Of a DNA stretch of 64,000 nucleotides, positions 20,082 through 59,807 are shown piece after piece (the stretch's first letter is position 1; every line of letters starts with the position of its first letter). The notes under the pieces are model-generated. The model was given only the letters and a program-made list of their open reading frames with translations, searched no databases and was not told where the DNA came from. The DNA lies in assembly GCA_011033025.1 (NCBI GenBank), contig WFMF01000626.1, positions 1 through 64,000 on the forward strand, in the 5' to 3' direction. The translations under genes were made by a program, and so were the position numbers. The DNA comes from Beroe forskalii (Eukaryota > Ctenophora > Nuda > Beroida > Beroidae).

Positions 20082-23000
20082 TTAGTCGAAAGAAAGCTGC
20101 AAGTTCGGCACAACATTCTCCTCCAAACACAGGAGTTCGTCGTCAATGTCGTTGGAAGGTGCCTCTGCTTGAGCGAAGTTGATGAAAACCTGAAATAGCA
20201 TAGGTGTCATTTGCTGCTTCATTGCGAGAATGTTATAAAATTGAATGCAAGATACTTACGTGGAAAAAAAACAGAAAACCATCTATTACCAACTTGAAAA
20301 ACGCACCTGCTCCAGGTTAGTCTGATGAACTGCGTAATCAAGCAGAGCCAGGTCCGGTTTAGCTTTCTGGAGGACTGTGAAGATATCTGACACGTGACTT
20401 TTGCTCTGCTTAACTTCGTACTTTAGGCTGCAGTAGTTTTCTTCTTTGAGAGCTGCAGCTGGCAGGTGACGCATCATGTACGATTTCACCTGGCAGTTAA
20501 GTGATTGAGCATTGTTTGAAACATAACAACACTACTTTATACAATCAAATTTGAGAACAATGAAGCTCGTGTGTTTTCTTACTTGTTGTGGAACTTTACT
20601 TTAATCAATAAATTGAGTAATTGAGTTAATTGATTGACTGATTATTCGCCAGAGTATTAAGTGCCTGGAGCAGTAAATAAAATTATTCGTAAAAGGACAT
20701 TATTTTTCTCAAAATTGATAACACATTTTAATTTCACATATTCTTATCAACCTTATTGACGTTGTAATCTTGCGGGTTGAGTTTCAGCCGGATAACGTAA
20801 CCATTGCCGTACTTATCTCTGGGAGAAATTGGTGTTAATGTTTTACTGAGTTAATCATAATGAGATAATAGGGGTTCTGTTATTATTAAAGCTGAGGAAC
20901 ATCAGCCCATTCAGATTACATATGTTCTGGATCTACTACTTGAGAGAAATTTCAATCAAAGTTTCACTCACACCCACCACCCATCCCCCACTCCCTGACA
21001 CCACTCATTTCATTTATAAGCATCCTCTCACCTTCCATCTTCAGCTGACGACGATAATCACATGATTTTCGAAAGCTCCTGATTTAAAGTTTATCGTATC
21101 ATTTAAACGTTTTAACTTGCTCTCTAAAAAGTTTCAGGAGTAACTGATAACTTTGCAAAGAAGCGGGTGTAACGTGAGATGCTTGGCGCTGCCTAGACAT
21201 CTGTAAACAATAACTTTGCAAAGGAGTGGGTGTTACCTGAAGTGCTGGGCGCTTGAGTAACTAATAACTTTGCAAAGGAGCGGGTGTTACCTGAGGTGCT
21301 GGGCGCTGCCTAGACACCTAGTAAACAATAACTTTGCAAAGGAGCAGGTGTTGCATGGGGTGCTGGAGTAAGTGAAAACTTTGCGAAGGAGCGGGTGCTA
21401 CCTGAGGTGCTGGGCGCTGCCTAGACATCTGAGTCTCCCTGCCACCATGATTCCTATCCTGCTACACAGCACCTCACACTCAGCCATGCTGTGGGACGTT
21501 ATCACCACTGCTTTTCCTGGGAAAATTGCAGTATTTTAAGATGGTGATGTCACCAACGTCCAACGCTGTATACAAACTCAATGTGATGACATCACCAATG
21601 CAAGATTTCACCTCAAAATGATGAGGCATATCATTATCAAACTTCATGTATATGAAAATTGAAAGTAGCTTTCCACACAAATCACAATGCTACTGATTAA
21701 GATGTAATTTCCACAGTAAGTTTCGAGCCTGATGCAGTTTGCAGCTTTCTCTCACCTTTGTTTTTCTGAGCTTGTATGACAGACCACAGAGCCCGTCTAG
21801 CTCCAGGATCCATTCCAGCAGTGGGCTCATCCAACAGGATCAGTCTAAGAAGAGGACATGCGGTTAACAAGGCGAGTAGGGGTCACGGCCTTGCGGAAAA
21901 GGGGGGGGGTGCTGGAGAAGGGATCTTATTTGGTCAAAAATTTAAAATTTGCGAACGCACTTAATGGACGTTACCTTATTAACGCACTTAATGGACGTTA
22001 CCTTATTAAGATAGGTGAAAAACATTGCTCTCAACAATAAACTTGTTTCGATGTCGGCACCTACTTAAGCTCGCCTATGTCAATAAAGAGGATGGCTTTG
22101 TGGACAAGGGGGGAGGGATCTAACTTATTCAAAAAATGGACATTCACTTATTAAATTTAAATAAGAGTGTCTTTGGAAAACATTGCTTTTAAACTCAGGG
22201 ACATTATTTCTCCACCTACTTAGGCTCGCCTATGAGAGTTATTGCAGCAGATAGTTTCCTCTTGTTTCCCCCACTGTACGTTCCACAGGGTCGAGAGGCC
22301 CATCTACTGAGACCCACTGTCCTGATTATCTGAAGACGTGGTAAAATGTTTATAGAGAGTCCTTGCTGGATTGTCGATAATTCAATATGCGAAACCGCGA
22401 ATAGTCCATCGATCATAACCATTACACCGCAAGCACGAATACTTCAGACAAATCACAAAATCCCATGGACTCAGTGAAAAGTTGCAACAAGCTCTAACAA
22501 TGAACAGCTACTTACCTGTCTGGAAATGAACTCTATCTGTGACTCCGGGATGCCCCTGAGTCTAGCGAATAGAGCCAGTGTCTCGTAGGAAGTGAGGGTG
22601 GGGAGGAGGGCGTCTGTCTGCGGGCAGTAGCCCATCTGACGCCGGGCAGCGGACATCTGATGCAGCAGACTGATCTGTGTCACCACCTGCAATTATTATT
22701 ATTAAAGTCATGAAATTATCTGGCCTTAAATTATTGTTATTAAAGTCATGAAATTTGCCTATGATTGTTTGAAAACCCCGGAGGGGCACCACTAAGGGCT
22801 TTGAAACTTATTACATAGTTAGTACATAATATGTGTTGAATGTATGAATGATTTAAAATTTTAAGTGCATGAATGTCCATATTCAAACCTGTTTTTTCAA
22901 ATAAATTATTCATAACACAGAGACATAAGTTGGTCTAATTGCTGCAATTTGTACTGTGTTTAATAGATTACCCGAGATCAAGTGCTCTTAGGAGGGCAAT

Positions 23001-26000: not shown

Positions 26001-27357
26001 GAAGCATCGAACGATGTCATTTCAATACCAAGGGATTCAAGCTGCTGATCTACCAGAAGAGCAGAAGTAAGAACTTATGGAGAAATGTTGGTATACGTAA
26101 TAAGAGGCAGTTGTTAGTTACATGAACTTCATTAGGAATCTACATGAGATGTAACCACGGGCTTCTGACCGCCATAGCTGGTTTGAGAGAAATTTGACTC
26201 CAAAAACAGTCCCTTTTTACATCTAAAATTTGATTGTATGGAGAGACGCTTAATTCGATAGTTTCGGGACTCGATTAAGTGAGGAGTTGCGTAGGTGACT
26301 ATTCACTATTTCAATGAGTTCATTAGTGGGAATCTTTTTCAATCAATATTTTATATTCGAGCAATGAGTCATAGTGCACTATTATATGGAGAATGACGTA
26401 ACTATTCTTTGAGATTTCCATTTATTGACTGAAAATCAGAGATATCAACTTCTTGCAATACAAACCGTAATATTTTGAGTCAATAAAGGCAGAGCAACTA
26501 GAATTACTCACTGCATCTCCGTTAGAGGGCTGTATTTCACCCGTCAACATCTTGAATGTGGTGGTCTTTCCGGCCCCGTTAATTCCCAGCAACCCGAAAC
26601 ATTCACCTGACAAATACAAAACCCTCAGCGAGTATATTGGTTCATTGTGCCATTTGTAACCCTGAGATATGGACGGACCAAACCACAGCACTTCTGTACT
26701 GTAGTTTGTAGATTGAAATATTGCTGTCTAAGTTAAACGTTTTGCATACTGAATTAAAGCCCGGATATTCTGAAGAGATTAAAGAAAAGAAGAGAGAAAT
26801 CAGAAAAGTTTACTCTAATTCATAATCACAGAATAAATTACGCATCGTAAAGAGATAGAGGGTGCTTCATGTTTGATACTGACCAGGGGAAACAGAGAAA
26901 GCGAGTCTGTTCACTACCACCTTATTCTTGGAGTAGATCTTACAGAGGTTCTGTGTCTTCAACACATCGTTGTAGGCGTAGGAGTAGATGGTTCGTTGTC
27001 GTTCTGCTTTGTGGAGAAGGAGAGAACTCTTTAGGGAGACAATGTGACAATGAAATGAAATTATTAATCTTAGTAAAGTTTAAATCACATTGAACGATGT
27101 GAAGATACCTTATTGGCCTTTATTTAGCCGGGCCGGCCTTTTTTAACGGGCCCTGTGGGCAAAAATCTCAAAGTCGTTTTTGTCCTTATTAAGGGCCGGT
27201 TCAAAAAGGGCCAATAAGGTATCATCAGTTTCAGGGCCACCTAGATCCTGCTCAAGGAACCCTGATTCCCTCCTCATTAGGCTCTGCTTTGACATCTTCG
27301 TCCTCTACATCCTTGTGAATGTTCGGCACGTTCCTCCTTTTCCCTTTCCGCGGAATG
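20082..27357 (-). CDS. ABCA exons: NBD2 and C-terminal domain
   Basis: In order: an acidic linker ([16 protein letters not shown]), [20 protein letters not shown], Walker [10 protein letters not shown] (26512-26606), Q-loop [18 protein letters not shown] (22516-22686), signature [17 protein letters not shown] (22220-22365), Walker [18 protein letters not shown] (21756-21844), H-loop [14 protein letters not shown] (21402-21516) and the ABCA-specific tail [27 protein letters not shown]. All catalytic elements of an active ATPase are intact. The stop follows QLSFD at 20082. The phase between the 27261 and 27006 exons is not fully resolved. Confidence 0.9.
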
Positions 27358-30300
27358 CTGCGGATATGTCACTTTACAAATACAGTACATGGCTTCTATA
27401 GAATTCCATGTATTGGAACCATTGACCTTTATACAACCCTCTGGTACGTGGCCTCCATGTATTGAAGCCATTACCCTTTATACAACCCTCTGTATAGACA
27501 AAGACACTTGCTTGATCCGGTCCATTATATTGGTTTAGACCCTCGCCCTTCGGGATGCAGGCCTAACTGGATATATCCCTCGGGAAGTATACAAGAATGG
27601 TCCTGGTATGTTATCATTTATCAGACTTTCATGCAGGCTTTGGACGATTTCTAAATTAATTGACTTGGATGATTATTGATTACGATTTATGGTTGTTAAA
27701 TAAGCTGCTGAGATTAGTGTCATTCTCTATTATTTTCGCTTTGAAATTCCTGATATTTTTAGTCGTTTACCTTTGACTGCCCTTACCTGATTAGACAAAG
27801 GATTGCAATGAAAACAAATCCGGTGACTGCCATGAACGTCAGGTTCCTTCCAATGATCTTCCAAGACCAAGGGGACACAGTGGGGTAGCCTGTAAATGTA
27901 GATGTGAGAAATATCATATTCACAAAATAAACAAAAATAATTATAAAAACCATTCTTCTGTAGATTATAAGAAAACGGACTTATTAAATTCACCTTGAAT
28001 GAGACTCACCGAAGACGACATTGATGTCGTTAATGAACTGGTTAGCAGCGAGGTCCATGACACCTCTGCCCAAACAGTAGTTAGGCAGCAGTAGGAATAG
28101 GTACTTCAGGATGTTGTTGAAGCTGAGGTGAAGAGAGGGTATTACGAGATACAGAACCGATTGAGATGAAAACTTCATGACTGCTTAATCTGACACGCTG
28201 ATTTCGAATATTTTGCTCTCAATATTATGTCACATTCATACAAGTAGTCATTATATTGGAGTGTCCAAATAGCTTCGACATGGGGCGAACCACGGACCTG
28301 ACAATGCCGATGTCATTTGTTAAAAGAGACCAGACACTTAACAGGAACTCGACATGAGTTGGTTATACCCAGTGTGTTCAGACAGATCATTATCACGTAC
28401 GCGTTGTTAGCTTCCGCGAATATCTTAGACGAAATGTACTTGCGTTTGATAACTCATGGAATTGACTTAGGATCAGTGGTGTATGTCGTTTGGGCACTGA
28501 ACTCAATATCCTGGTGGTGAGGGTGGTGGTAATCCCACAGAAGGTGTTCAGACAGATCATTATCACGTACGCGTTGTTAGCCAAGCGTACAGGAAACTGT
28601 GCGGGAGGACGAAATGAGGAGCTGCACATTGCAGGATTAATTATACCCAAAACCCATTATAGGGTCCTGAAATTCCTGTAGTCATATTGAACAAAACCTT
28701 CGAGATAAAAAAGAGTTGGTGATTACCTCGCGCCCTGATTGGTCAAACTCAAATCGAGTCCAGTCATTTAATTTAAAGTAATTTAGGGAGAATGAATAAT
28801 ATGCGCTTTAAGGAGGTAAATAAATCTCATTCCATCTGAGGAAAATTTAGAAAATGAGATCCTAATTCTACTCACATAAGTGGAGTGATTGACCAGGAGT
28901 AAAGGACGAAGAGCATGGTAATAGCAGGGATGTTATCGGCACTGGAGAAGGAAGGAGAGTGGAAGATCACGATACCTGAGAGATGTTGTTATAGCAACCG
29001 ATACCAGCTGAGAGATGTTGCAATAGCAAACGTAAACGATACCTGAGAGATGTTGTTATAGCAACAGTAAACGATACCTGAGATATGTTGTTATAGCAAC
29101 CGATACCTGAGAGATGTTGCAATAGCAACCGTAAACGATACCTGAGATATGTTGTTAACTTGTTATAGTATCCGTAAACGATACCTTAAATAATAAGTGA
29201 TACAACATCAAGCACCATGTAACCCGAAATGTAAGATACCATACAGTAGATAATATCATACAGTAGATAACATCAACATTCAACAGGATCGTAACAGTAG
29301 GGCATTGACACGAGTAATAAGATTTGGAGTAAAAACAATGTAAAACCCCTACAGTAGTGACCACTCACCATGTCCCAGATCAGATTGGATATCCAGTAGG
29401 GGACTATCCTAGCACCTGCAATACACTCCAGCAGATACAAACTAGAACACCTGGTAAAGGGAAGTGATGTCAACACCATGCCAAAATACTGCAAATAACC
29501 AAATCATACTTCATTCACAACTACGGCATTTTATTGAGGCCCCCTTTTGTCCATTATCTCAATGAATGATTCATCTCTTCCTGTCGCTTCTTCTTAAAAT
29601 CATCATCAGTATACCATCGACAGTTTATTAGCATTATACCCATAAGCAATTTAAAATCAACCAATCAGCGCGTGAGTCGACTGTATACTCGTTAGCTGAT
29701 TGGTCGCAGTCCCTACCTCTCACTGACAAGGAAGAGCACGAAGCTGGCTGGCACGAAGCTGAGAGCCACTATAATAAACACACTGATCACGAGGTCGTAG
29801 GATTCCTCGTCCATCAACTCCCACGTTTCTGGGGGGTTTGTTGAGGGTTGTAGGGTTTTCAAGGGGTTGGAGGGTTTCAAGGGGTTGTAGGGGTTTCAAG
29901 GGGGTTTATTAGGGGGTGGCAGGGTTTTCGTCGGTTGAATGATCAATCAATATTTCGCGTCATAATATTCCTCATAATAAGCTCTAAAACTGAAGAACAG
30001 CAGAACACCACTGACCTGCCAGGGAACTGTTGCTGGGTAGAGGGTGGGTGGACACAGTGATACCGTACTCTGATATGTTGCTCCATTCTGAGGGGTTATG
30101 GCGATTGGTGATACATTCTTTCTAAGATCTCGCAAGCTTTTCATGAACTAATATAGGGTTTCAAAGGGGTTGGAGGCTTTCAAAGGGAAGAAATTACAAA
30201 TTGCCAGAAAAGCAAGTAGAAACGGTAGGGGTTTCAATCATGGGTCACGTTTTCAAATTGCCAATTTCATGTATTTCAAAAGGGGTCAAGAAAAGGGGGT

Positions 30301-33300
30301 TGAGGGTTTCAAAGGGAAAGTGGAAACATAATAAAGAGTCCAGAACATCAAATTTGAATTGAACCCATGCCATTGGCCAAGGGGGTGCCCCAAAGGGGTT
30401 GGAGGGTTTCAAAGAAGGGGGTTTATCCCCACCCCCCAGTATCTGCCCATAGTTCCCAAGTTTGAGAACCCTGATGCCATTCCCCATATTTCCGTCAGTA
30501 TCGAGTCAGTATCCCCCCCCCCTCAGCATCACCCACCCCCAGAGTACTGTTGCTGGGTACCCCTCAGTACAGTGATCCCCATATGTTGCTCCATTCTGGA
30601 GGTTATGGTCATTGGTGATAAATTGTTTCTAAGATCCCCACCCCTCAGTATCCCCACCCCCTCAGTATCCCCCACCCTCAGTATCCCCCCCCTCAACCAC
30701 CCCTGTATCCCCACCCCCCCCTGTATCCCCACCCTCAGTATCCCCCACCCCCCCTCAGTATCCCCCACCCTCAGTATCCCCACCCCTCAGTATCCCCACC
30801 CCCCAGTATCCCCCACAGTATCCCCACCCCTCAGTATCCCCCACCCCCTCAGTATCCCCCACCCCTCAGTATCCCCCCACCCCTCAGTATCCCCCACCCC
30901 TCGGCAGTATCCCCACCAGTATCCCCCACCCCCCCCTCAGTACCCCCACCCCCTCAGTATCCCCCCCTCAGTATCTCCCAGCACCAGGTTATTAATGTCC
31001 CAGGTACAGACGTAGTGGTAGGTGGGGAGGGCGTCAGTATCCCCACCCCTCAGTATCCCCCCTTTGGCAGTATCCCACCCCTCAGTACCCCCCCTCAGTA
31101 CCCCTGAAATTAAATATTTTGATGATCTCAACATATCAAGGTATTAAAAAGTAAACACTCCTCCAGCTATCTACCTCTGAAAGACGTATCTCATGTTGGT
31201 CTGAACCAGGAACTTCTCCAGATTCCAGCCCGTCAGGTTCTGTAGGATGTAACCGGAAATGGAAGTGAACTCCAGTAGTTTGGGGATCTCAGGGAACATG
31301 TGGTTACCGCACATATCTGAGGAGAGAGGTTATACAGGTTCTTAGACGCAAGAAAATATTTTGTTGGGGACGATTTTATATACTTGAGGATGACGGAGAC
31401 ATAAGGAGATGAATTCTGATTCTTTTTTAATTCACTAAATCAAATGGACAGTGCAGAATATGAAATATAAAACGCTTTAGCTATCAATAGGGCTGTTGTA
31501 GTAGTGTTGCCACGGGAAAGCCATTTGAGAGGTATGTTTGGGCGAGGTGAAGTTGTTGAGCGCCATAACCTCAGCATCTGAAAACGCTTATTGAGCAAAT
31601 AAACCCCTCTTCTAGAACCTTCACCACGGGAAATAGTCTCTGCTAAACTTGAACTCTATTTGGCAATCGTATTGAGCTGTTACCAATTGCGTCATTTCTC
31701 GACTCATTTCACCGTAATATTAGCTTGAATACAAATGAATTTAATTGATTTAGGTACATAATTTTTTGTCAGGCGTTGCCTGACCCCCTCGCACGCACTA
31801 ATTTGTACACTTTATGAGATACTGGAGAGAGGGAGTATTTATGAGTCGCATGTTTACGAATGATTGCTAATAAATTCTTATGAAAAGCACTAAAGCAGCT
31901 TTACACGACGGATTAAAAGCCGTTTCTCATTTCGCCGCAAATAACAGTTAAATCAGGACTTATTTCATAAAGTATCCGTATAAATTTTGACGCAAATAAC
32001 TGTTAAGCCAGTATCTATATCGTAAAGTATACCGATGGGAGGTGCCCAAGGTCCCGCTGGGTACCCCACTAGTTCAGCAAGTCGGGAGGTTCCGTCACTA
32101 GAGTTATCAGAGAAGGGTACGTAGTAAGGGTGCTTGAACATGTTCACTGACAGCTCCAGCTTCTTACTTGACAGATATTTACTTGGGTTTGGGAGATGTT
32201 TCCTTGTGTTTGGGATAGATATTTCCTTGTGTTTGGGAAAGATATTTCCTTGTGTTTGAGAAAATTTATCTCCTTGTGTTTGAAAATGTTAAAAGATATT
32301 TCCATGTGTTTGGAAAAGCTACAAGTGGAGGTTGAAAAATGATTTGTCGATGAAGTTGGTAATTCCAGAAGCAGCAAATTCACGAGTTTTGCAATCAGAA
32401 AATAGTATACTCCACAAAAGTCAGTTAAATTTCAAGACGTGTGACTCAGTACTTACTTGAGTCGAGGTGAGGCCTGACGATGGAGATGACCATGGCTAGA
32501 GAGACAAAGACAGCAGGCAGCACTAGCTGGAAAAAGAGACCCCAGCAGTCCCGTCGCGTGTGGTGAATCCTGAGGGTGGGGGTTAGATGGGAGAAATAAT
32601 TCCCTGAAATTGGGACAAAAATCTGATTATGTCGTTTCTACTTCACGACCAATATTTATCATGTGGGATTATAATTCTTTGAGGATCGAAATTTGAGCGT
32701 TTCTAAAATATGGCAATCGTGGAAGGATTAGGATTGGGCTTTCAAAATATCGGGATCTGTTCAGTGTTCGTAAAACCCCCAAGTTTTGTTCCTCTGGTAC
32801 CTCTTCATTCTCTCTCACTTTGTATACAGTAGTTTTGTAACGTCTCTTATTGTAGTTGTACCTAATCATGGAAGGATTAGGGTTTCAAAATATGTTTTTT
32901 TCCGTAAAATACTAACTCCTGCGCCCCAATAATTCCTGTACCTCTTCATGAGTTGTGCGCGTATCTGCCTGCAGGTGGTTGGAGGAGGCAGGTCCTGTTT
33001 GGAAAGGGGCAGCAAGTCAGCCAACTCCTCGTCCACCTTCTCATCGTCATAGAGATGCGGGGGTACTTCGTCAGCAGCGTACTTCTCGTCTGGGAAGTTA
33101 TGAAATACACAGACATGCACCTATTGGGTCCGTTTTGGGATGCAGCCCGAGGGATTTATCCGGTTGAGGCGCGAAGGGCGATTGTCTAATTCAATATGAA
33201 CCCGATAAGGCAAGTTTCTATGTATCATTGACACCGATGGAAATAATTACTGAATGAATATTATCCAAGAGATCAGACAACGAGAATTTGGTTCGGTCAA

Positions 33301-36300
33301 CAAGATAAATCTTCACAGAGTAAACACTGACCTGGTTCTTCCTCTAGCGGCATGTTATCATCGTGTAGCAGAGTGTCACTCTTCTTAGAAGCCATGTTTT
33401 CACCGTCAGCAACACTCAAAAACACCTGCAAAAACTCAGAGTTAGTAATGATCCAAAAATACCTTCCAAAACCTCAGAGTTAGTAATGATCCACAAATCC
33501 CTTCCTAAACCTCAGAGTTACAAGAATGATCCACAAATCCCTTCCTAAACCTCAGAGTTACTAATGATCCAAAAATCCCTTCCTAAACCTAAGAGTTACA
33601 TGATCCAAAAATCCCTTCCTAAACCTCAGAGTTAGTAATGGTCCAAAGATTCCTTCCTAAACCTCAGAGTTATTAATGATTCACAAATTGATTACTGAAC
33701 CTCAGAGTTATTAATGATCCGCATATTGATTTCTGAACCACAGAGTTAATAATGAAGTAATGATCCACATATTGGTAACTGAACCCCAGAGTTAATAAAA
33801 TACTAAAACTTAGACTTATTTAATGATCCACAGACTTATTATTAATCCACAGAGTTACAGGGGCAGTTCAAACTGCACTGTGCGCGTCTTTTTGTGTGCG
33901 CGGTGTAAGTTTACGCGGCGTATAGACATGAAATGTGAATAGCATGGCGTCGAGTACGCCGCGCACACAAAAGATGTTCAAACCGCAGTTCGAGCTGTCA
34001 CCGTTATAACTGAATTTACAGTAACACCTAAAATCGCAATATTAAACACTTATTTGCTGATCTGATCTCACGTGACGCATTTAAAATTCTCTAGAACAGA
34101 TCAACACTAGAACAAATGAAATGGCATAAAACTGATCTATAGATGACTGAAAATCATCGGTCAACCAATCATCATGCTGGATTTATATGGTACTGCGCGT
34201 TCATTTGTCATAGCAAAACTTATTGAAGGGGGAGCTTTCCAGCCAAATCACACGATTGTGGCTGACCAATGAACCCTGCACACCTTAGTAAAACTATATG
34301 TACTTTAGAGGCGTAAGACGAACACGCAGACAATATAGAGCCCTGCGAGAGCAGGGCTCTATATAATATTTAAATGTCGACAGCGTAGCTGGAGACATTT
34401 AAATAATTTAGAGTGCGAGGCGAAGCGAAGCTGAGCCGAGTGCTCTAAATCATATTTCTGCGGTGAGTCTGAGCCTCTAAAGTACTATAGTAGTCGAACG
34501 GTGTACAAAAGACACACCCTGTACACAACAAGCACACATTACCTTATATGGTAATAATAGAAAATGCTTGTTAACACAAAACAAAAAAGCGCATAACTCA
34601 GCCGTTTTTTGAGCAATTTTGATCAAACTTTCAGGATATTACGGGCAAGATATGACCAATACATTCCTGGAGTAGCTAACATTTCTGACCCTCGGAAATT
34701 GAGATATGACAGATAAACCGGTGTTTTGTTTTAAAGTTACCGCTTAACAACTGGCTTTTCGGTCATAACTCCGCTTCTGGAGCTCAAAAATGAATCTAAA
34801 CTTCACTGAGATGTTGCTTTTATGAAGCTCTAAATATCCTGAAAGTTTCATCAAGTTTGCTCAAAAAACCTCGGAGATATGCACATTTTTGTAACGCAAA
34901 AGCAAAGGTCGCTTAGATGTGTATTTAAATTGGTGTGTCATAACAAACACATGATATAAAGCGCGAGTAGAACACGACTCTACGCATATAGTACTACCCT
35001 TTAAATCGGTCAAAACTTGTCGTGAGACTACTATACCACCTTTTGTAGCGTACCCGTCAATTGAGTTCCTCGATAGCTTTCATTATATTGTTCACATAAA
35101 ATATTAGTTCGCATGACATATTCTAGATTCATTTTATTTCTAAAGTGGGTTAATGTATGCTGAGTCCGTCCCAAAGCAAGAGAGTGTGCATATCCCTTTG
35201 TAACGACCTTTAAAAACTGACTAAAGTCAGCCCCCGTACAGTGTACGGGGGGTTTACTTTGGTCAAAATTCAGCCCATATATCGTGTTATCTCAGTTATC
35301 ACTTTAATTAATCTTAAATTCACCAACCTTTGTCAATGCCTTTCATTTCTGATCACTGCAGATTGCAGTTGACCCTGTTTTAGTCGAGCCTATTTGTCAT
35401 TACGCCACCCCAAAACCACTTTACGCCGCCCTACACCACTTTACGCCGCCACTACACCACTTTCACCGCCCCTTCACCACTTTACGCCGCCCCTACGCCA
35501 CTTTACACCGCCCCTACACCACTTTACGCCGCCACTACACCACTTTTCACCGCACCCTACACCACTTTACGCCGCCCCTACACCACTTTACGCCACCCCT
35601 AGACCACTTTACGCCGCCCCTACGCCACTTTACGCCGCACCTACACCACTTTATGCCGCGTCAACACCACTTTACGCCGCCCCTACACCACTTTACGCCA
35701 CCCCTACACCACTTAACACCGCTTCAATACCACTTTACGCCGCTCCAACACCACTTTACGCCACCCCTACACCACTTTACGCCGCCCCTACACCACTTTA
35801 CGCCACCCCTAGACCACTTTTCACCGCACCCTACACCACTTTAAATTGCCACTAAACCACTTTACGCCGCCCCTACACCACTTTACGCCGCCCCTACACC
35901 ACTTTACGCCGCCCCTACACCACTTTACGCCGCCCCTATACCACTTTACGCCCCCCTACACCACTTTCACCACCCCTACACCACTTTACGCCGCCTCTAC
36001 ACCACTTTACGCCGCCCCCTACACCACTTTACGCCACGCCTACACCACTTTACGCCGCCCCTACACCACTTTACGCCGCCCCTATACCACTTTACGCCGC
36101 CCCTACGCCACTTTACGCCGCACCTACACCACTTTACGCCGCTTCAACACCACTTTACGCCGCTCCAACACCACTTTATGCCGCGTCAACACCACTTTAC
36201 GCCGCCCCTACACCACTTTACGCCACCCCTACACCACTTTACGCCGCTTCACACCACTTTACGCCACCCCTACACCACTTTACGCCGCTTCACACCACTT

Positions 36301-39300
36301 TACGCCGCCCCTACACCACTTTACACCGCCTTTACACCACTTTACGCCGCTCCAACACCATTTTACACCATCCCTACACCACTTTACGCTCTACACCACT
36401 TTACGCCGTAACATCTCAGCAATGTCGCCGGATTTCCCTTCTCCTCCCCTCTCATCCACAGAGAAGTACTGTCTGGTGACCTGGTGTCTCACCACCATCG
36501 TTATCGGAGTTATGGGCAACCTCGTAATCTTCCTCGCTACCCGCTCCTCCCCCCGTCCTCTCCGCACGGATCCCGTCAGTAGGATCCTGATCAGGAACAT
36601 AGCCGTCAGCGACATGGGTGTAATAGTGTTCGGGTGCTGTCCAAGGCTAGTGTCAGTGATCCTGGAACAGAACCACTTCCCCTTGGGCACCTCAGCGTGC
36701 TATGTCTTCCACTACCTCAGAACCCCCTTCAACCTAGCATCCCTGCTCCTAATCTGTTGTCTTCACGTCTACAAACTGGTTAACGTAACGTACCCGCTGC
36801 GGGCTCTGGGCAGAACTCGACAGAGCGGGGTTATTCTCGCTACCCTCATCTGGCTGGTTCCCACACCCCTGCTGCCTGTACAACTCCTCATCAACCCTAG
36901 AGACGTGGCGTACAACCCCCGAGTCTTCATGTGTCTCTACTCCTTCACAGACGCTGTTTGGAAGAGAATACGCCCTGTGCAGGCCTTGCTCCTAATAGGA
37001 ATCCCTAATGTGGTCGTGCTGTGTACTACCATATCTCTCATGGTGGTAATGAAGAGGGTCAGGGGCAGGGTTAGAGTGGGAGGGGCTCTAGCCGCCAGCT
37101 ATGTGGGGGCGGTCTACCTTCTATCCTTCATTCCTGTAGCTTTCTACGAGGTGATTGTCAAGAGTAATGTGGTGTTATCTCCCAATGTCAGGTACTTTGT
37201 GGAGGTGAAATACTTCAGGTTTGCCTACTTCATCCCCTTCCTTAATGTGATGTGCAATGTTTTTATCTACTATATCTCTCTGGAGAGTTTTAAAGTGACT
37301 GTGAGGCGAGGTGTCAGTACCTGGATCAAGAAAGTACCCATATTCAGCAGTTACAGACAGAGGTCAGGGGGTCTTCCATGAACGCATTTTGACACACTTA
37401 CGAACACTGTTACGTGACATTTACGAATACTCTACAAGAATTTTGTCCATGAAACTCGGACCCTTCTTCTTAAGTGAAGCGATTTGCGATTACTCTTGGA
37501 CATTTACGAGTACTCCCTAAAATCCTTCTTAAGTGTGCGTGATTCACTGCGTGAGGGTGCGTGACCCTATTAAGAGTGTGCGTAAGTCAAAGATTACTCC
37601 TAAGTCAGTTCGTAATTTGTGCCAACTTATGAAAAATCCTACGACCACTCTGGAGGGGTCTTACGAATACTCTTGACCCATTTCTCCTCAATAAGTTGAT
37701 GGTAGAGTTGGACGTTGGCACGGTATTTCATGACACATTTTGAGTTTAGAGGCATAGAGCATTCCGGCTCCCAAGTCCAACCTCCAAATTTACCACATAA
37801 TCCACATTAGATAATTTTATTCAAAGCAAAATGATTTGGAAATGATGATACAACGTGAAATGACAGCCTCTTGCGTGACTTGAAACGATGATTGTTGACA
37901 AATTGGCATGCCCTCGATATGCTTGTATCTATCAAGTAACAATGAATATGATCGCCTTTCATTTCTATTCTATAATTGGGGTAGGTCAGTCATGATGCTC
38001 TAGATTGATCACGAGTAATATGGATCAGTTGTCAAGTGCCTATGTGAACTACTGGACTATCAAGACAGTGATCATTATTGAACTTAAATGTGTAGTTCAT
38101 ACGCATCTACGACCAAATAGTACAGGTTCAGGTCTCAGGAGCATGAATTTTTCAACCCTGCGATTGAAACTGAATAAAAGAATCGAGGTGCGTTCACAGT
38201 TCACTGAAACTGTACAATGTACATCAATGCTCAAGCAAAAACTGTGCCTTTACCATTGCCTCTAAAATCAAACAAAAACATAAGGTACCTATAACATCAC
38301 ATTTAGATCAAATAGGAAAATAGGAAGGTACACGGGCTACAACAGACAATCGAAGCAATATCATAATCACCTATGTTTCATGTTATCAAATCGGAAATAG
38401 CCGATATCAAGGACAACTCAAAATGTACCTACCTATAACAGAACCGAACGTTTCGAAAATTTTGAAATACATCACGGTAAACACCATTGTGCGAATTCGG
38501 CTAAATCTAGACGCTGAAAGCAGAAATTGAACAATTGGTATTAATAAAGAATTGACACCTGAATGGAACATTCAAAATTTAAACGCATAAAAGCATAAAC
38601 ATGATGAAGACGGTCGACAGTAGAATCAGAAAACGCTGAATAGTGAACCAAGCAGCAAACTAGAAGGAAAGACTACAAATAGGTACGTATGAAATAGCTA
38701 CACCCAAAACATGTATCACTCATACCACAACTAGTTTCCATATAAGGAATAATGAGTGTACTCTCCCGCTCTCAAATGCAGGAACTGCGTAAGTGCGTGA
38801 GAAAAACTAGAACCCTATTGGTTGGTGTTCATTACACGTGACTATGCGAGAGAGTATTCGTAAATCAGAGAGTATTCGTAAATCAGTGTTCGTGGACAGT
38901 GCGCGTGATATTTTCGGATCGTCCAAACATGGTCCGAATGTTTCATGTACACTCTTGGAGAGTATTCGTAAAATTGGTACCCTATTCGTAAGTGCTACGA
39001 GTACTCTTAGACGATTGTTTCATGGAAGACCCCCTGGTAATGTTGTCAGACTGAGACTGAGAATCATGAGATCTTAGTGAAATACGCAGACGAAGACAAA
39101 ACACCTGATTCATTCTACTGGCCCTTTAAACTACCCTTTCCGTTGTCGACGCCCCTACACCACTTTACGCCGCCCCTACACCACTTTACGACGCCCCTAC
39201 ACCACTTTACGCCGCTCCTACACCACTTTATGCCCCCTGCACCACTTTACGCCGCCCCTACACCACTTTACGCCGCCCCTACACCACTTTACGCCGCCCC

Positions 39301-41430: not shown

Positions 41431-41765
41431 CTGAGAGAGGGGGTGGTTAAGTGGGGATACCTAGATCAGCACTGCTGCCGTCCAGCGCCTTGAAGAGGTC
41501 GGGGAACACGCCTCTCTGGAATGCTTCCCTGAGAGAGGGGGTGGTTAAGTGGGGATACCCAGATCAGCACTGCTCCCGTCCAGCGCCTTGAAGAGGTCGG
41601 GGAACACGCCTCTCTGGAACGCCTCCCAAGGAGAGGGGGTGGTAAGTTGAGGGGGGTAAGTTGAGGGGGGGGATTAAGTGACACCACAAACCCCTTATAA
41701 ATTGGGGGGGGGGGGTTAAGTGACACCACAAACCCCTTATAGTAAAGCCTGAACAAACAAAAAGT
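41431..41765. repeat. Two further partial copies of the ABCA NBD1 exon, and a poly-G tract
   Basis: Exon segment with acceptor (minus strand CTCTCAG|GGAAGCATTCCAG) repeated at about 41450-41560 and 41560-41645, each encoding [12 protein letters not shown] in open frame. Beyond that are two copies of TAAGTGACACCACAAACCCC around G runs (41665-41740). The copies lie upstream of the real exon in transcript order and could be alternative acceptors. Confidence 0.75.
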
Positions 41766-43045
41766 TTTAAAGATTATCTAGATAAAACACCGGCGAATAG
41801 GAACTTTTTGACTCTCGATACGGCGTTTCCCCATGAGATACAAAAGATTATACTACGATTAAAAAATAACAGCTCGCCAGGTCCCCTTAAAATACCCAAT
41901 ACTTTTATTAAGCTTATTGCCCTACAACTATCGGGACCACTCGCTAATGCCATCAACAAATCAATGAGCGTCGGATATGTTCCTAAGATCTTGAAAATAG
42001 GTAAACAAACGCCTGTTTTTAAATCTAAAGAACACGTGATAGAAAATTTCAGACCTATTACAGTATGTAACGTTTTCTCCAAAATTCTTGAAAAAGTTGT
42101 GCGTGAACGACTAGACAATTTTGTGGATAATAGTAAAATATTGAATAAATTTCAATTTGGTTTCAGAAAAAGTCACTCAACCACGCATGCTATTATCAAT
42201 TTATTTGAAGCAACACTTGATGGGCTTGAAACTAAACTAAAGTTGGAGGAGTATATCTGGATATCTCCAAAGCTTTTGACACAGTCGATCACGATATACT
42301 TCTTACTAAATTAGAGCATTATGGTATTAGAGCAAACGCCCTGCTTTGGTTTGAATCGTACCTAAAAGATAGAGAGCAATATGTTGTGGTGGAGGGCAAT
42401 AAGTCCTCGTCATATACAACAAATATTGCAGTTCTTCAAGGAGGAGTCTTACGTGCTATTTTATTTATTATCTTTACAAACGACATAATCCACGCAACAA
42501 ACATGAAGTTATCCATTTTAAATGCTGATGATACTTGTATGATTATTGCCATTGATGAAAATTCTTACACTGAGCAAATTAAAGTAGAACTCAAATGCAT
42601 AATGAACTGGTTTGTGGCCAATAATTTACTGCTTAATATAGATAAACTGATTACAATTTTTTCGGTCCATACCCAACAAAGTCTATGAAAAGGCGAAATT
42701 GACCTAACAGAACTGCATATCACAGCACCACGCTTTCTCTATGAACTAGATCCAGCTTACATGCTAGAAGGCCATCCTACCGCTGAAGAAATAAACAAAA
42801 AGGATTTCACGTTACAAAATTACACGATACAGCCCCTAAATATTTTTTAGATGACTCAATTATTACTGATAATAACACCCAGTGATACTGTGAAATATCT
42901 CGGAATTCTTATCGACTCTAGACTGAATTTTAAACTCCAAATTAATGTAGTTATAAGTAAAATCAGCAAAATGATAGGTAATTTCTGGCGTGCTGACTGT
43001 CTAGACCTTAAAACCAAAAAACTATTTACCACAGTTTAGTCGAAT
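41766..43045 (+). pseudogene. Decayed LINE reverse transcriptase (CR1/Jockey-like)
   Basis: Several frames together give a non-LTR reverse transcriptase: FRPITVCNVFSKILEKVV, ILNKFQFGFRKSHSTTHAI, then in a shifted frame LDISKAFDTVDHDILLTKLE and HYGIRANALLWFESYLKDR, then VLQGGVLRAILF and LNADDTCMI for the catalytic ADD block, and KYLGILIDSRLNF in the thumb. The active-site block and the PQGS-type motif are altered, and there are frameshifts and stops, so the copy is dead. No endonuclease domain is present. Confidence 0.85.
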
Positions 43046-43162
43046 CACACCTCAACTACGGGAACACTATCTGGTGTTCTGATGCTTCGAAAAATTAATG
43101 ACTGATGCAAATCAATCTTCTATCCCGAGCTCTTTGAAAATTTAGTTGCAACGCAAAACAAT

Positions 43163-53525: not shown

Positions 53526-53539
53526 TAATCCAATATACC

Positions 53540-53650: not shown

Positions 53651-53825
53651 AAACCATATCTTTAGACTCGAAGAGGTACCCTCATTTACTTTATCACTAT
53701 TATAATTTGTGCAAAAACTTATAAATAATAATATTGTTTTATTAATACTTGCCTCGACAACGCGGAGGGTAGTTCAAAGAGCCAGTAGAATAAATCAGGT
53801 GTTTTGTCTTCGTCTTCCTATTTCA

Positions 53826-54809
53826 CTAAGATCTCATGATTCTAAGTCTGACAACATGACCATCTGATCTCTGTCTGTAACTGCTAAATATGGGTACTTT
53901 CTTGATACAGGTACTGACACCTCGCTTCACAGTCATTTTAAAACTCTCCAGAGAGATATAGTAGATAAAAACATTGCACATCACGTTAAGAAAGGGAATG
54001 AAGTAAGCAAACCTGAAGTATTTCACTTCCACAAAGTACCTGACATTGGGAGATAACCCCACATTGCTCTTGACAATCACCTCGTAAAAAGCTACGGGAA
54101 TGAAGGATAGAAGGTAGACCGTCCCCACATAGCTGGCGGCTAGGGCCCCTCCCACCCTGACCCTTCCCCTGACCCTCTTCGCCACCACCATGAGTGATAT
54201 AGTGGTGCACAACACTACTACATTAGGGACTGCTATGAGACACAGTGCAATGACAGGGCGCAGCTTTCTCCACACAGTGTCCGTGAAGGAGAAGAGACAC
54301 ATGAAGACTCGGGGGTTGTATGCCACGTCTCTAGGGTTGATGAGGAGTTGGATAGGCAGCAGGGGTGTGGGAACCAGCCAGATGAGGGTAGCGAGAATAA
54401 CCCCGCTTTGTCGAGTTCTGCCCAGAGCCCGCAGATGGTACGTTACGTTAACCAGTTTGTAGACGTGAAGAGAGCAGATGAGGAGCAGGGATGCTAGTTG
54501 GAAGGGGGATCTGAGGTAGTTGAAGACATAGCACGCTGAGGTACCCCAGGGAAAGCGATCCTGCTCGAGGATCACTGACACAAGAACAGGATAACACCCG
54601 AACACTATCAGACCCATGTCGCAGAGCGCTATGTTCCTGATCAGGATCCTACTGACGGGATCCATGCGGAGAGGGGAGGAGCGGGTAGCGAGGCAGATCA
54701 CGGAGTTGCCCATAGCTCCGATTACGATGGTTATGAGACACCAAGTCACCAGGCAGTACATCTCTGCGGGTGAGAGTGGCGGGGAGGGGAACGCAACATC
54801 CGGCGACAT
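53826..54809 (-). CDS. Class A-like GPCR, paralogue 3
   Basis: Intact single-exon receptor of 327 residues (MSPDVAFPSPPL to RIMRS). It is more diverged than paralogues 1 and 2 but keeps the same key features: [73 protein letters not shown] and [12 protein letters not shown]. Its array, 5' flank (55740-56090) and 3' flank match those of the ABCA-intron paralogues in inverted orientation, so it is an inverted duplicate that left that intron. The ligand is unknown. Confidence 0.92.
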   Translation of the reverse strand: MSPDVAFPSPPLSPAEMYCLVTWCLITIVIGAMGNSVICLATRSSPLRMDPVSRILIRNIALCDMGLIVFGCYPVLVSVILEQDRFPWGTSACYVFNYLRSPFQLASLLLICSLHVYKLVNVTYHLRALGRTRQSGVILATLIWLVPTPLLPIQLLINPRDVAYNPRVFMCLFSFTDTVWRKLRPVIALCLIAVPNVVVLCTTISLMVVAKRVRGRVRVGGALAASYVGTVYLLSFIPVAFYEVIVKSNVGLSPNVRYFVEVKYFRFAYFIPFLNVMCNVFIYYISLESFKMTVKRGVSTCIKKVPIFSSYRQRSDGHVVRLRIMRS

Positions 54810-54814
54810 TGCTG

Positions 54815-55740
54815 AGGAGTAGGGCGTAAAGTGGCGTAGAGCGTAAAGTGGTGAAGGGGCGGTATAAAGTGGTGTAGGGGGCGGCGTAAAGTGGTGTAGT
54901 GGCGGTGTAAAGTGGTGTAGGGGCGGCGTAAAGTGGTGAAGGGGCGGTATAAAGTGGTGTAGGGGGCGGCGTAAAGTGGTGTAGTGGCGGTGTAAAGTGG
55001 TGTAGGGGCGGCGTAAAGACGTAAAGTGGTGAAGGTGCGATATAAAGTGGTGTAGGGGGCGGCGTTAAGTGGTGTAGTGGCGGCGTAAAGTGGTGTAAGG
55101 GCGGCGTAAAGTGGTTTAGTGGCAATTTAAAGTGGTGTAAGGGCGGCGTAAAGTGGTGTAGGGGCGGCGTAAGTGGTGAAGGGGTGGCGTAAAGTGGTGT
55201 AGGGACGGTATAAAGTGGTGTTGGTGCGGCGTAAAGTGGTGTAGGGGCGGCGTAAGTGGTGTAGGGGCGGCGTAAGAGGTGTAGGGGCGGTATTAAGTGG
55301 TGTTGGTGCGGCGTAAAGTGGTGTAGGGGCGGCGTAAAGTGATGTAGGGGTGGTGTAAAGTGGTGTAGGGGTGGCGTAAAGTTGTGTAGGGACGGCGTAA
55401 AGTGGTGTAGGGGCGGCGTAAGGTTGTGTAGGGGGCGGTGTAAAGTGAAGTGGCGGCGTAAAGTGGTGTAGGGGTGGCGTAAAGTGGTGTAGAGGCGGTG
55501 ACGCGGCGTAAAGTGGTGTAAGTGTGGCGTAAAGTGGTGTAGGGGCGGCGTAAAGTGGTGTGGGAGCGGCGTAAAGTGTTGTAGGGGCGGTGTAAAGTGG
55601 TGTAGGGGCGGCGTAGCGTGGTGTAGGGCGGCGTTAAGTGGTGTAGGGCGGTGTAACGTGGTGTAGAGGCGGCGTAAAGTGATGAAGGGGCAGTTTAAAG
55701 TTGTGTAGGTGCGGCGGTAAGTGGTGGTGTCGGCGTAATG
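54815..55740. repeat. 21-bp minisatellite upstream of GPCR paralogue 3
   Basis: Inverted-orientation array with core GGCGTAAAGTGGTGTA, directly 5' of the minus-strand receptor. More irregular than the two other arrays, with variant units (GTATAAAGTGG, GCGTTAAGTGG). Confidence 0.8.
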
Positions 55741-57839
55741 ACAAATAGGCTCGACTAAAACAGGGTCAACTGCAATCTGCAGTGATCAGAAATGAAAGGC
55801 ATTGACAAAGGTTGGTGAATTTAAGATTAAGTAAAGTGATAACTGAGATAATACGATATATGGGCTGAATTCTGACCAAAGTCTGTACCGGGGGTTGACT
55901 TTAGTCAGTTTTTAAAGGTCGGTACAAAGGGATATGCACACTCTCTTGCTTTGGGACGGATTCAGCATACATTAACCCACTTAAGAAATGAAATGAATCT
56001 AGAATAATATGTCATGCGAACTAATATTTTATGTGAACAATATAATGAAAGCTATCGAGGAACTCAATTGTCCATAAAAGCATAAAGGTGCATGTGAAAA
56101 TTGAACTGAATACCAATTTCCTAATGCAAGGATCAGAGTGGAGAGGGAAGATACTAAACTGTGAATCATCAGCGGTTACCCTGTTGATGCAACTGTAATT
56201 CCCAAGCTGAAGAGAAAACTTTCACCTGCAAGGGCCGACGGTATACGACAGCTCATTTGTGCGTTTGGTGTAAAGATAGCTCGTCTCTGGAATTCACCTC
56301 CTAAAACCCGTTCAAACTTTTAAAACAGCCAGAGAATTGGAATATTCCTGGATAAGCCACTGCCTACTGGTTCCGGGTTGCAAACCCTCAAACAACACTA
56401 CTCGACTGGAGCTCTGAGCGAGAGGATGGAGACATGGTCTTCACTGATCCCATCTACGATCCCTGCCGAATCCTCCAAAATACATGTATGTCAGTAGATG
56501 TGAATGTCCCACGGTTTTGGTCTTAACATCCGTATGCCCCGTTGGGGCAGTCCCTAATATCATAACAATTGTTCAGTCTCTCCCTTATTAATGGAACTGT
56601 TCCCTGAACAGTGTTAGCTCCAATAAAACCCAGTCTCAATGCACTTTCAAGGACATCAATAGTTCCGTCACACAGCTTCTGCAGATAGATGTAGTCATAG
56701 TTAGAGTACAATGTACATGATGAACTCAGTGTTACCCAGCGTAAGACGTGGAACTAAGTCGAAACCTAAATAGAACCTTGTCTGAACCTATGTGGCACCT
56801 ACTCGAAAGTCGAAACCTCAATCAAGGTGATACTTAATTAGAGAATCATCTGGCCATTGCTGGAGCTGCAAGTGACGGTCTATTTCAAGTTTCGACTAAT
56901 TTTCACTTGAGTTTCGATCTAAGGTTCCGACAGGATTCCACCCAGTTAGATCGGTCTTGGTCAATTAACTGCGCCTGCCGCCATGATGAACTTCAATGTA
57001 CTAGGACTCACTTCACTGCATCCTAGTCGCTATTCACTTTGAATAATTTCCGAGGTATCAGGATGTCATTATGGAGTTCCCTGATTCCTGCAAGTGTCCA
57101 GCTGCTCCACTCGCAGAATTTCATTTTAGATGATTCATGGCAGCCGTTCTGTAGAACGAGTTCTACTAGATACCTACAATATTCCAATATTCCAATATTC
57201 GTTTGATGCCTACTCAGTATTTCTTCTTAGGAGGTTAAGAGAGCCCCTTGTTTGTGGCTCCTTGGTCAGATGGCAATGCCATGACATGTGCCACCATGGT
57301 GTCAAATAAACATGCCTCTGGAACCTTTGAGCATTGGTATTAAGTCATAAAATCTTCAAATATTATTAATGTCTGTGATAGAACATTAATCTGTAAGCGT
57401 GCCAGGACACCCATTGCAATTTTTAGAAGATGATATGTTGTACCACAGAATATTGGAGATTATATTATGACTTTCCGCGGTAAATGTAACTTATTATAAT
57501 TCATCTTATCTTTAATTTTCTTAACTTAGAATTTAACATATTTCTATTTTAAATATCATCTGCAAACTTTAATACAGAATATATGGTGCTGAACATGAGA
57601 ACTTTAATTTTGAAGATTAATCAAACATGGATGAGACTCCATTAATGAAATCCGTTCGAAATGCCATAAACCCTCATCATTGTATCCAAAAAGGTTCTAA
57701 ATTTTGAATTCTGGTTCCCAATAGAATTTGATATTTCCTCTCCTTTCTTTCCGCCATCGACCCCTCTCTAAAATGTGTCCCCTTGCTGTCACTCCGCCCC
57801 TCCACTCCCCCTCGTCTCTCATCCTCTACCCCATTTCAG
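55741..57839. other. Spacer and presumed WASHC1 intron
   Basis: 55740-56090 is the inverted duplicate of 35060-35400. The rest is unique. A minus-strand open frame at 56523-56711 (ending CPNGAYGC) has no recognisable domain. No WASH N-terminal (WAHD1) exon and no ABCA NBD1 exon could be found here. Confidence 0.4.
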
Positions 57840-59807
57840 ACCGGACCTGGGAGAGGTTCCAGAACTAGACATTCCCGTTTACTTGCCGGACCTGCCCGGG
57901 GTTGCGGAGATCTCCTTCGATCAGAACGTCGGCTCCATCGCTCCCTCCCTGCCTAACCTAGGGGATCTCCCTGATTTACCTGACATCCAGGAAGTGGGGG
58001 AGGTAGCCCCTATTCCCCCTCCCCCTCCACCAGCTGGTGGTGGTGGGGCGCCGCCCCCTCCACCCCCACCCCCGCCAGGACCTCCTCCACCTAACGTACC
58101 CCCTCCACCTCCTCCTCCACCCCCTCCTGCTGCTGCCCCGCCTCCTCCCCCACCCCCTCCTGGTTAGTGTCACTCCACCAAACACCCCACCTGGTGACTG
58201 TCACTCCATCAAACAGTCAGACTCTCAAACATACCATGCTCCTGCCCTCCAGACAGAGGTGGAGCAGCTGTAGTCTGTACATGTACAAATGTATAGTACA
58301 TAAATTCCCAATCGCTCTGACAAGAATGAAATGCTGATACACTGAATTAAACTCTCATTAAAATGAGGCAGAAATCTTTCGTTTTACACATCATCAGTGC
58401 CAATAATGAGAATAAACTAGATTAGGAAAACAGCAAAGCAAATGTACAGAAAACCACCTAAGTCTTAAATGAGAGTAGAGGTATCCCAAAGGGGTCATTA
58501 GAATTAATTCCAAAAGGTTTAATTGATCTTAATTTTTGAATAAATTTATGTTCATTGATTTCTAAATTTTTGGGACTAGAATTCATTAAGATAAGAATTT
58601 CATAAGAGGCATTAAAATCAGCTTTATCTAAAAAGCCATGGTCATCGACCAAGTGAGCTCCCAGACTCACTTGGTCGATGTAGACCAAATGTACGTTATT
58701 CCATCCAACTCCGAACTGGAGTAATTTGAGTACATTTCAATCACACCTCGGTCTTATACTCTGTAATATTGAATTCAATTTAGAGGAACTTCAGTTTAGT
58801 AGTGAAATGATCAGATGGTGTAAAATGTAAACGTGTATTGTGTAATAGTTATGAGTCTGACTCGCAATTGGAAGATCTGGCTTCTCATCCTGACACTATA
58901 CGTTTACATTGTACTCATCAATTTCAAATTTCGGTTAGTTTTAGCGAATTTTCAGAACAAGAACTCTACACTCCCAATTACCTTATATAAAACACGACTG
59001 TTGTAACATAATAGGATTGTTGTAACACAACTGTTGTAACATTAGGATTGTTCGCAGGTCCGAGTGCGCCGCCCCCACCGCCGCAGTCGGCCGGTCAGCC
59101 CAGTTCGGGAGCGCCTGCGGAAGCTCCTGCGGAGCAGGGTGGGCGGGGCGACCTGCTGGCTGCCATCAGAAACGCCAACAAGTCCAAACTGAAGTCTGCT
59201 GAAGAGAGGAGACGCGACAAGAAGGAGGAGATTAAGAAAGAGAAGGAGTAAGTTACAAGATTTCAACATCAAATATTGAAATAATGAAATGATGTTCTGT
59301 CTTTTTGTATTCCTCCACGGTCCTTCTTGCTTCTACCGTTACGACCTTATCACTTTTTAAACTCCTTCTAACTTCCTTATTCCCCTCCCTGAACTACATC
59401 CCACATCTCTGACTTCCTTATTCCCCTCCCTGAACTACATCCCACATCTCTGACTTCCTTATTCCCCTCCCTGAACTACATCCCACATCTCTGACTTCCT
59501 TATTCCCCTCCCTGAACTACATCCCACATCTCTGACTTCCTTATTCCCCTCCCTGAACTACATCCCACATCCTAGGACCGGGGGAGGTGGTGATATGATG
59601 AGTGATTTGATGGCCTCCCTCAACCGGAGACGTAAAGGCATCTCCGGAGACAAGAGTTCCGGAGCAGGAAGTAAGTCAGGCGGGGTGACATCACCCCCTC
59701 CTAAAGTGGGGGCCATGGACAGGGTCTCTGCCATGATACCCCCACCCAAACCTCGCTCAGACACAACCACTACTGACGGAGACGCCAGCGACTTGGACTG
59801 GGATTAG
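57840..59807 (+). CDS. WASHC1: WASH complex subunit 1, C-terminal exons
   Basis: WASH activates Arp2/3 to build branched actin on endosomes. Three phased exons: 57840-58162, 59058-59247 and 59576-59807. Exon 1 gives [20 protein letters not shown] and [15 protein letters not shown], then a long polyproline tract that recruits profilin-actin. Exon 2 has the WH2 actin-binding segment [18 protein letters not shown] and a charged helix. Exon 3 has [18 protein letters not shown] and the acidic Arp2/3-binding end DASDLDWD with the conserved Trp, then TAG. Order and spacing match the VCA region of animal WASH. The N-terminal WAHD1 exons are not visible upstream, so the gene is partial here. The intron before exon 3 carries a tandem array. 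Confidence 0.92.
59365..59575. repeat. 41-bp tandem repeat ending at a WASHC1 3' splice site
   Basis: Five near-perfect units (ACTTCCTTATTCCCCTCCCT then GAACTACATCCCACATCTCTG). The last one runs into the acceptor CACATCCTAG|GACC. The unit is itself pyrimidine-rich, so the array multiplies the polypyrimidine tract. Confidence 0.85.

Follow-up and report, generated by a model that had tools for sequence, protein, structure and literature searches.

In the sampled introns of the ctenophore Beroe forskalii, tandem arrays are distributed unevenly between the two splice sites. The window analyzed here is a stretch of 64,000 nucleotides from contig WFMF01000626.1 (hereafter C721) in the 216-Mb assembly GCA_011033025.1; it contains exons of an ABCA1-like transporter gene (ABCA) and of WASHC1, where a first-pass annotation made from the letters alone had noticed tandem arrays at seven 3' splice sites. 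In these two genes and in independent loci of the same assembly, the asymmetry sits in arrays confined to introns and consists as much in a deficit at donors as in an excess at acceptors, the purging of arrays near donors being its clearest component. Copying of the splice sites themselves is real and two-sided, and is not what sets acceptors apart. We tentatively extend this polarity to the whole genome: arrays would pile up toward the 3' end of introns and leave the first 100 nt after the donor almost free, with about one-fifth of acceptors having an array within 50 nt and about one-eighth (outside the window) a tandem near-copy of themselves, and splice-site copying would steadily supply decoys, shifted exon edges and new introns and serve as a natural test of exon-adjacent AG choice.

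Arrays were called with Tandem Repeats Finder (TRF) at a score of at least 50 and a period of at least 8. Independent loci, picked without regard to arrays, comprised 200 kb of contig C110, the 20 kb adjoining the window, and the surroundings of ABC-transporter and myosin exons (loci designated by L numbers). Exon edges were placed by reading frame, splice-site position weight matrix (PWM) and, where possible, phase, resulting in a final set of 111 acceptors, 103 donors and 81 introns (window, 23 acceptors and 21 donors; C110 and the loci, 56 and 54; extension, 32 and 28). Array coverage was measured 25–100 nt before acceptors and 10–100 nt after donors, with circular shifts within introns as the null; introns shorter than 120 nt were excluded, and in those shorter than 200 nt the two intervals overlap.

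In the 62 independent introns that qualified, 19 of them with any array, coverage was 0.190 at the acceptor and 0.037 at the donor, against an expected 0.111 (acceptor p = 0.0008, donor p = 0.0013, sign-flip p = 0.0003). Restriction to homology-supported exons left 49 independent introns (12 with arrays) and coverages of 0.166 and 0.027, with 0.105 expected; the acceptor p was 0.0070, 0 of 4000 shifts were as low at the donor, and nine introns favored the acceptor and one the donor (flip p = 0.0032). Proximity counts ran the same way, with an array within 50 nt at 13 of 72 acceptors versus 3 of 66 donors of supported exons (p = 0.012), on the intron side of 23/111 acceptors versus 7/103 donors among all sites (Fisher one-sided p = 0.0027), and at 16/88 versus 5/82 outside the window (p = 0.014). 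Coverage by intron fifths, from donor to acceptor, was 0.034, 0.114, 0.145, 0.190 and 0.145 (55 independent introns). Of the 79 introns in the whole set that reached 120 nt, 29 with any array, 19 had more array near the acceptor, four near the donor, and 56 were equal.

Introns of at least 200 nt, in which the two intervals cannot overlap, yielded a flip p of 0.0065 (n = 32). When each end was tested with the other set aside, both deviated from expectation (38 independent introns; acceptor p = 0.012, donor p = 0.0008), and across all introns the acceptor excess persisted with the first 100 nt set aside (p = 0.0040). In the whole set, the flip p stayed at or below 0.0022 whichever of seven genes or gene groups was left out, and stricter TRF thresholds (period at least 15, score at least 80; 51 introns, window included) gave p = 0.0042 for acceptors and p = 0.0068 for donors. 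The first-pass annotation had proposed a genome-wide comparison of the distances of arrays to splice sites with shuffled positions; a comparison of this kind, run on the sampled loci, returned the acceptor excess together with the donor deficit.

Arrays that span an exon boundary show no such asymmetry, occurring at 7/111 acceptors and 6/103 donors (5/95 and 4/87 with homology-supported exons only), and intron-confined arrays make up the majority, 16 of 23, beside acceptors. Copies of exon and intron edges were also sought without TRF, by aligning 30-nt edges to the adjoining 600 nt and retaining scores of at least 13 of 30. With all sites pooled, upstream copies of the exon 5' edge were present in 7/108 cases (downstream control, 0/109) and downstream copies of the exon 3' edge in 6/102 (upstream control, 1/100); the last 30 nt of introns were copied upstream in 18/107 cases (controls, 0/108 and 0/406) and the first 30 nt downstream in 9/101 (controls, 0/99 and 1/377). 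Outside the window the corresponding counts were 5/85, 4/81, 10/84 for the intron 3' edge and 7/80 for the intron 5' edge, with all own-locus controls at 0. An exon-edge copy lay upstream of 6 of the 23 array-adjacent acceptors. Decoys scoring at most 1 bit lower than the real site accompanied 8 of the 22 scored array-adjacent acceptors (of 23) and four of seven donors, so that the first-pass remark that several units create decoy acceptors was a fair one. Prominent arrays outside the window are listed below.

C110, 21,212: largest case, 62 bp × 22.7 with 18 decoys, at an exon without a family match.
IQSEC, 143,844: 1.4-kb donor array with 48 decoys, at an exon without a family match.
IQSEC, 163,668: spanning array, at an exon without a homology match.
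L014: 64 bp × 14.9 over an ABC acceptor, homology-supported exon.
L044: 34 bp × 8.1 over a myosin acceptor with four decoys, homology-supported exon.
L012: spanning array, homology-supported exon.
Cullin gene: 44-bp donor array, homology-supported.

Another myosin acceptor, L044:329, is adjoined by an 860-bp array of a 16-bp unit that includes the branch-point motif CTTGACACC and lacks a final AG. This unit is dispersed (exact 25-nt match at 16 places in eight contigs), and in a non-exhaustive search of the assembly DNA the 98-bp array at ABCA acceptor 41,430 and an exact 37-nt piece of the 62-bp unit occurred at their own loci only. The units of the arrays, three of which were thus searched in the assembly, differ and do not form a single dispersed repeat family, in agreement with the first-pass view that the units are unlike in sequence and length. 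Mean pyrimidine content was 0.60 in units near acceptors and 0.52 in units elsewhere in introns. The acceptors look compact, with pyrimidines climbing in the last 15 nt, and the TRAY motif is modestly enriched about 13–21 nt from the exon (12 per 3-nt bin versus 5.8). At 79 acceptors, TAAC or TGAC motifs often lie 13–21 nt from the exon, and branch points may, on this sequence evidence, be located close to the 3' splice site.

Several results weigh against the reading given here. In 41 introns of 150–1500 nt (window included), the acceptor excess was weak (p = 0.098) and the donor deficit had p = 0.0014. Under edge clipping in 37 independent introns, the acceptor p was 0.010 for 50 nt but 0.055 for 25 nt; at neither distance was the donor deficit significant (p_lo = 0.34 and 0.21). 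The extension exons alone had arrays at 3/32 acceptors versus 0/28 donors (Fisher p = 0.14, flip p = 0.055). Outside the window, no acceptor bias in splice-site copying was found (10/84 versus 7/80, p = 0.34); such a bias was suggested by the pooled counts (18/107 versus 9/101), was due to the window, and was discarded. Acceptor-likeness was not clearly greater in units near acceptors (6/28) than in the rest of the intronic units (24/132), and was consequently rejected as proof that arrays derive from acceptors. The p-values are uncorrected for the thresholds tried, and the introns with arrays are few.

The two genes with these arrays are real, as judged by an ABCA1 alignment (E = 2.8e-198 for the spliced minus-strand exons), matches of the ABCA product to ABC_tran and the ABCA1 R1 domain, and matches of WASHC1 to WASH_WAHD and WH2.

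20,082–41,430, minus strand: coding exons of the ABCA1-like transporter gene, covering the end of nucleotide-binding domain 1, transmembrane domain 2, nucleotide-binding domain 2 and the R1 domain (spliced-exon alignment and domain matches).
57,840–59,807, plus strand: last three coding exons of WASHC1 (WASH) (WASH_WAHD and WH2 matches).

The arrays and repeats beside their splice sites are the following.

41,357–41,647, minus strand: 98 bp × 3, spanning acceptor 41,430; unit consists of the intron 3' end, AG and 74 nt of exon (TRF).
33,431–33,755, minus strand: 38 bp × 8.6, 5 nt off acceptor 33,425; the intron 3' end, TACTAAC included, is copied in the unit, copy score 24.5/30 (TRF).
33,812–33,857, minus strand: weaker 19-bp array next to the 38-bp array.
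32,173–32,282, minus strand: 23/44-bp array, 10 nt off acceptor 32,162, a weak site (PWM score −0.6) of uncertain exact position (TRF).
29,834–29,903, minus strand: 19-bp array (29,834–29,896 in the comparison of TRF arrays with acceptors), 5 nt off acceptor 29,828, making up its C-rich tract (TRF).
28,968–29,157, minus strand: 35/64/99-bp array, 26 nt off acceptor 28,941 (TRF); units hold CTCTCAG/GTATCG, acceptor-like and donor-like together, with three decoys matching the real acceptor in strength.
22,687–22,760, minus strand: two-copy repeat at acceptor 22,686, below a TRF score of 50; upstream copy of the intron edge, 23.5/30 (direct edge alignment).
21,137–21,431, minus strand: 111 bp × 2.6, spanning donor 21,402; unit consists of the exon 3' end (30 nt) and GT, a donor "mirage" (TRF).
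58,154–58,215, plus strand: 31 bp × 2, spanning WASHC1 donor 58,162 (TRF).
58,991–59,052, plus strand: 33 bp × 1.9, 5 nt off WASHC1 acceptor 59,058 (TRF).
59,367–59,571, plus strand: 41 bp × 5 (99% match), 4–5 nt off WASHC1 acceptor 59,576; unit pyrimidine-rich with CTGAC and CTGAA, without a final AG (TRF).

The first-pass observation as a whole is confirmed, with six of its seven placements corresponding to a TRF array 0–26 nt from a homology-supported acceptor and the seventh, at 22.69 kb, to the two-copy repeat below the cut-off. Its wording that arrays sit exactly on acceptors holds for 41,430, which is spanned, and not for the remaining TRF arrays, about 5–26 nt away. It had overlooked the arrays at 58,991–59,052, 21,137–21,431 and 58,154–58,215; because the latter two span donors, a fair test must take in donors too. 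As for the biased duplication of acceptor-proximal DNA that it had inferred, the placement bias recurs in independent loci and the duplication of splice sites is not acceptor-specific; an acceptor-biased process, not separated from selection, is possible.

The two genes by themselves are insufficient to establish polarity, and it is the independent loci that carry the significance. Arrays are dense in the sampled DNA, at 7.05 per 10 kb and 14.9% of bases in C110 (200 kb) and 7.14 per 10 kb and 13.1% of bases in C721 (84 kb); 13.5–15.3% of random points fall inside an array, and 16.6–18.4% have one inside or within 50 nt on one side, so that the window proves little by itself. Its introns had an array within 50 nt of the acceptor in 6/18 cases and of the donor in 2/18. 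The acceptor p was 0.0055 by a non-overlapping shuffle at 50 nt, 0.04–0.05 by circular shifts, and 0.056–0.11 under edge clipping, where arrays may overhang the exon edge (0.056 at 6/18 introns). The non-overlapping shuffle, which gave p < 0.001 for independent acceptors, underestimates edge contact and was replaced by edge clipping and circular shifts.

Further duplications were seen in the ABCA gene. One exon with its flanks has a degenerate copy some 0.5 kb upstream within a single intron (30,016–30,087 versus about 30,560–30,620), and another exon is present twice, at about 28.4 and 28.6 kb. The 3' end of exon 41,322–41,430 has a partial copy at 41,160–41,215 in the downstream intron (score 22.5/30), so that, with the 98-bp array, this exon is copied on both sides. 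Adjoining the 98-bp array, open frames at 41,724–42,688 look reverse-transcriptase-like by eye.

Tandem duplication of intron-exon boundaries, both 5' and 3', with units of 10–160 bp, copy-number instability and apparently normal splicing, is known from lancelet genes as "mirages" in the parts of PMC3087553 and PMC3902484 used here, which cite Adh3 as the original report and to which all comparisons with mirages below refer. On sequence grounds, the boundary-spanning arrays of B. forskalii have the structural features of these mirages: the units vary from locus to locus, are tens to about 160 bp long, include an exon edge with its splice signal and in many cases carry splice-signal decoys, and both boundaries are affected at the spanning and decoy frequencies given above. 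Units that span a boundary with exon sequence were found at acceptor 41,430, donor 21,402, L014, L044, L012, C110:21,212 and IQSEC 163,668; the array at 41,357–41,647 is an acceptor mirage. The 16 of 23 arrays beside acceptors that are confined to introns do not include the boundary. Lancelet mirages were described gene by gene, whereas here the frequency was measured over 111 acceptors and 103 donors and intron-confined arrays were separated from spanning ones, whereupon the donor-to-acceptor polarity appears. This polarity is the new part, and the spanning arrays match known mirages; among the titles and abstract openings of the open-access papers searched, mirages in lancelet genes were found and no report of a donor-to-acceptor gradient. 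In the Rogers model, as discussed in the part of PMC3087553 used here, introns are gained through tandem duplication of segments bearing AGGT; the duplicated segments here likewise carry splice motifs, CTCTCAG/GTATCG combining acceptor and donor, but unlike in that model the arrays sit in existing introns.

We consider it probable that these are tandem arrays of introns in a genome where local tandem duplication abounds, with selection deciding which survive. Arrays of this kind, their unit lengths and their imperfect identity are ordinary for intronic minisatellites, from which the present ones differ in their non-uniform position along introns and in the inclusion of splice sites in some of them. 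Slippage, template switching or unequal exchange would generate duplications in many places. One that crosses an exon edge would be tolerated because a whole exon is left, partial dead copies would stay in the intron, and splicing presumably still uses the exon-adjacent copy. Arrays just inside the donor would be purged because that stretch is constrained, and those upstream of a compact acceptor would be tolerated. The acceptor excess that is left once donors are excluded (p = 0.012) calls for an additional mutational or functional factor; the most likely one would be that the pyrimidine-rich DNA there duplicates or keeps arrays more readily.

A mutational hotspot, in which pyrimidine-rich acceptor tracts provoke slippage, triplex formation or template switching, new tandem duplications begin there more often and selection is minor, would agree with the persistence of the acceptor excess outside the first 100 nt (p = 0.012 for independent introns, 0.0040 for all) and with the higher pyrimidine content of near-acceptor units; we regard it as unlikely because it leaves the donor deficit unexplained and because spanning arrays and out-of-window splice-site copies are as common at donors. 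That acceptors instead drifted into pre-existing arrays already carrying branch-point, pyrimidine and AG motifs would suit the 16-bp unit at L044:329, which has a branch-point motif without a final AG and, being dispersed, is not peculiar to the site. This reversal of cause is quite improbable, as it cannot apply where exon sequence is also copied (6/23 array-adjacent acceptors) and would require exon-edge shifts in conserved domains.

Selection favoring arrays that strengthen or regulate the acceptor through extra branch points and pyrimidine tracts would fit those units in which branch-point-like and AG motifs occur (TACTAAC at 33.43 kb, CTTGACACC at L044:329). However, most introns of at least 120 nt are free of arrays (29 of 79 have any), decoy AGs should compete with the true site, and lancelet mirages are reported not to disturb splicing (parts of PMC3087553 and PMC3902484), all of which makes such a function very unlikely. 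There remains the view that no real polarity exists, arrays in array-dense DNA having landed beside splice sites by chance, the striking cases having been picked out by the first-pass annotation, and the rest being inflated by exon calling or low-complexity tracts. The high baseline coverage, the window's own p of 0.056–0.11 under edge clipping, a PWM that favors pyrimidines and the 12 of 32 first-round C110 exons without their own Pfam match speak for it; the 62 independent introns (flip p = 0.0003), the supported exons (flip p = 0.0032; 13/72 versus 3/66, p = 0.012) and the robustness to gene removal and stricter TRF thresholds speak against it, and we judge it quite improbable.

If the polarity is genome-wide, it offers many natural experiments in the form of splice sites repeated in tandem, with a single copy, the one next to the exon, leading into the reading frame. 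How splice sites are chosen would then be testable, intron gain and exon-edge shifts would have a measurable source, and lancelet mirages would appear to be one case of a wider process.

The exons of the independent loci vary in their support. In the first round on C110, 20 of 32 exons had their own Pfam match, to cullin, Ras, SCO1, Sec7 and its PH domain, CCDC92 and zf-C3Hc3H, with matches below the curated cut-off to the PSMD5, COX6B and CWC15 families; the other 12 were assigned by position and by eye. Match strengths were E = 1.6e-113 for the spliced cullin, 1.1e-61 for the Sec7 domain, 6.3e-44 for three SMG9 exons against solved SMG9, and 2.3e-14 for the PSMD5 exons at C110 12,705–13,718 (3.6e-12 against solved PSMD5). 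ABC_tran was matched in every ABC locus used and tested, L020 included. The homology re-test found no family match for the C110:16,934 and 21,212 exons, two IQSEC exons (163,164 and 143,844) and two KANSL2 exons. Splice sites were chosen with the PWM favoring pyrimidines, and some counted boundaries are 1–3 nt off (WASHC1 59,577 for 59,576; ABCA 20,192). Open reading frames lying at least 60% within arrays were excluded, a rule that may conceal exons consumed by arrays. Extension exons split three earlier introns, which were replaced, and the intron of SMG9 was rebuilt. L008 and L009 had no usable splice sites. The anchors dropped were five classed as "other," SEC7b, one KANSL2 and one minus-strand cullin, and later SMG9 10,974, cullin 33,738 and 34,474, L012 1,039 and L020 221; single sites dropped were the CCDC92 acceptor, the donors of COX6B, SCO1 and one IQSEC exon, and later some others. 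Self-trained ab initio gene finding on 284 kb and 12 loci was rejected, as the reversed-sequence control yielded 505 exons versus 540, and stricter thresholds still called many exons on the reversed control.

Seven of the 19 ABC loci (L002–L007 and L010) were excluded as intron-free and probably bacterial, as judged from their lack of arrays and open frames of 378–1683 aa. These loci, on contigs C3, C726, C694, C702 and C777, have long uninterrupted ABC frames in array-free DNA, and the assembly may include bacterial contigs.

Elsewhere in the window, three very similar single-exon genes (35,400–37,381; 39,150–40,935; 53,826–55,785) look seven-helix-receptor-like by eye. Each has upstream a long 21-bp GC-rich array, with a unit like TTACGCCGCCCCTACACCACT, that reaches almost to the start codon; gene and array were probably duplicated as one. 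Two similar 11-bp GC-rich arrays occupy 7,735–8,545 and 14,248–15,075, where several frames of one strand are open over long stretches.

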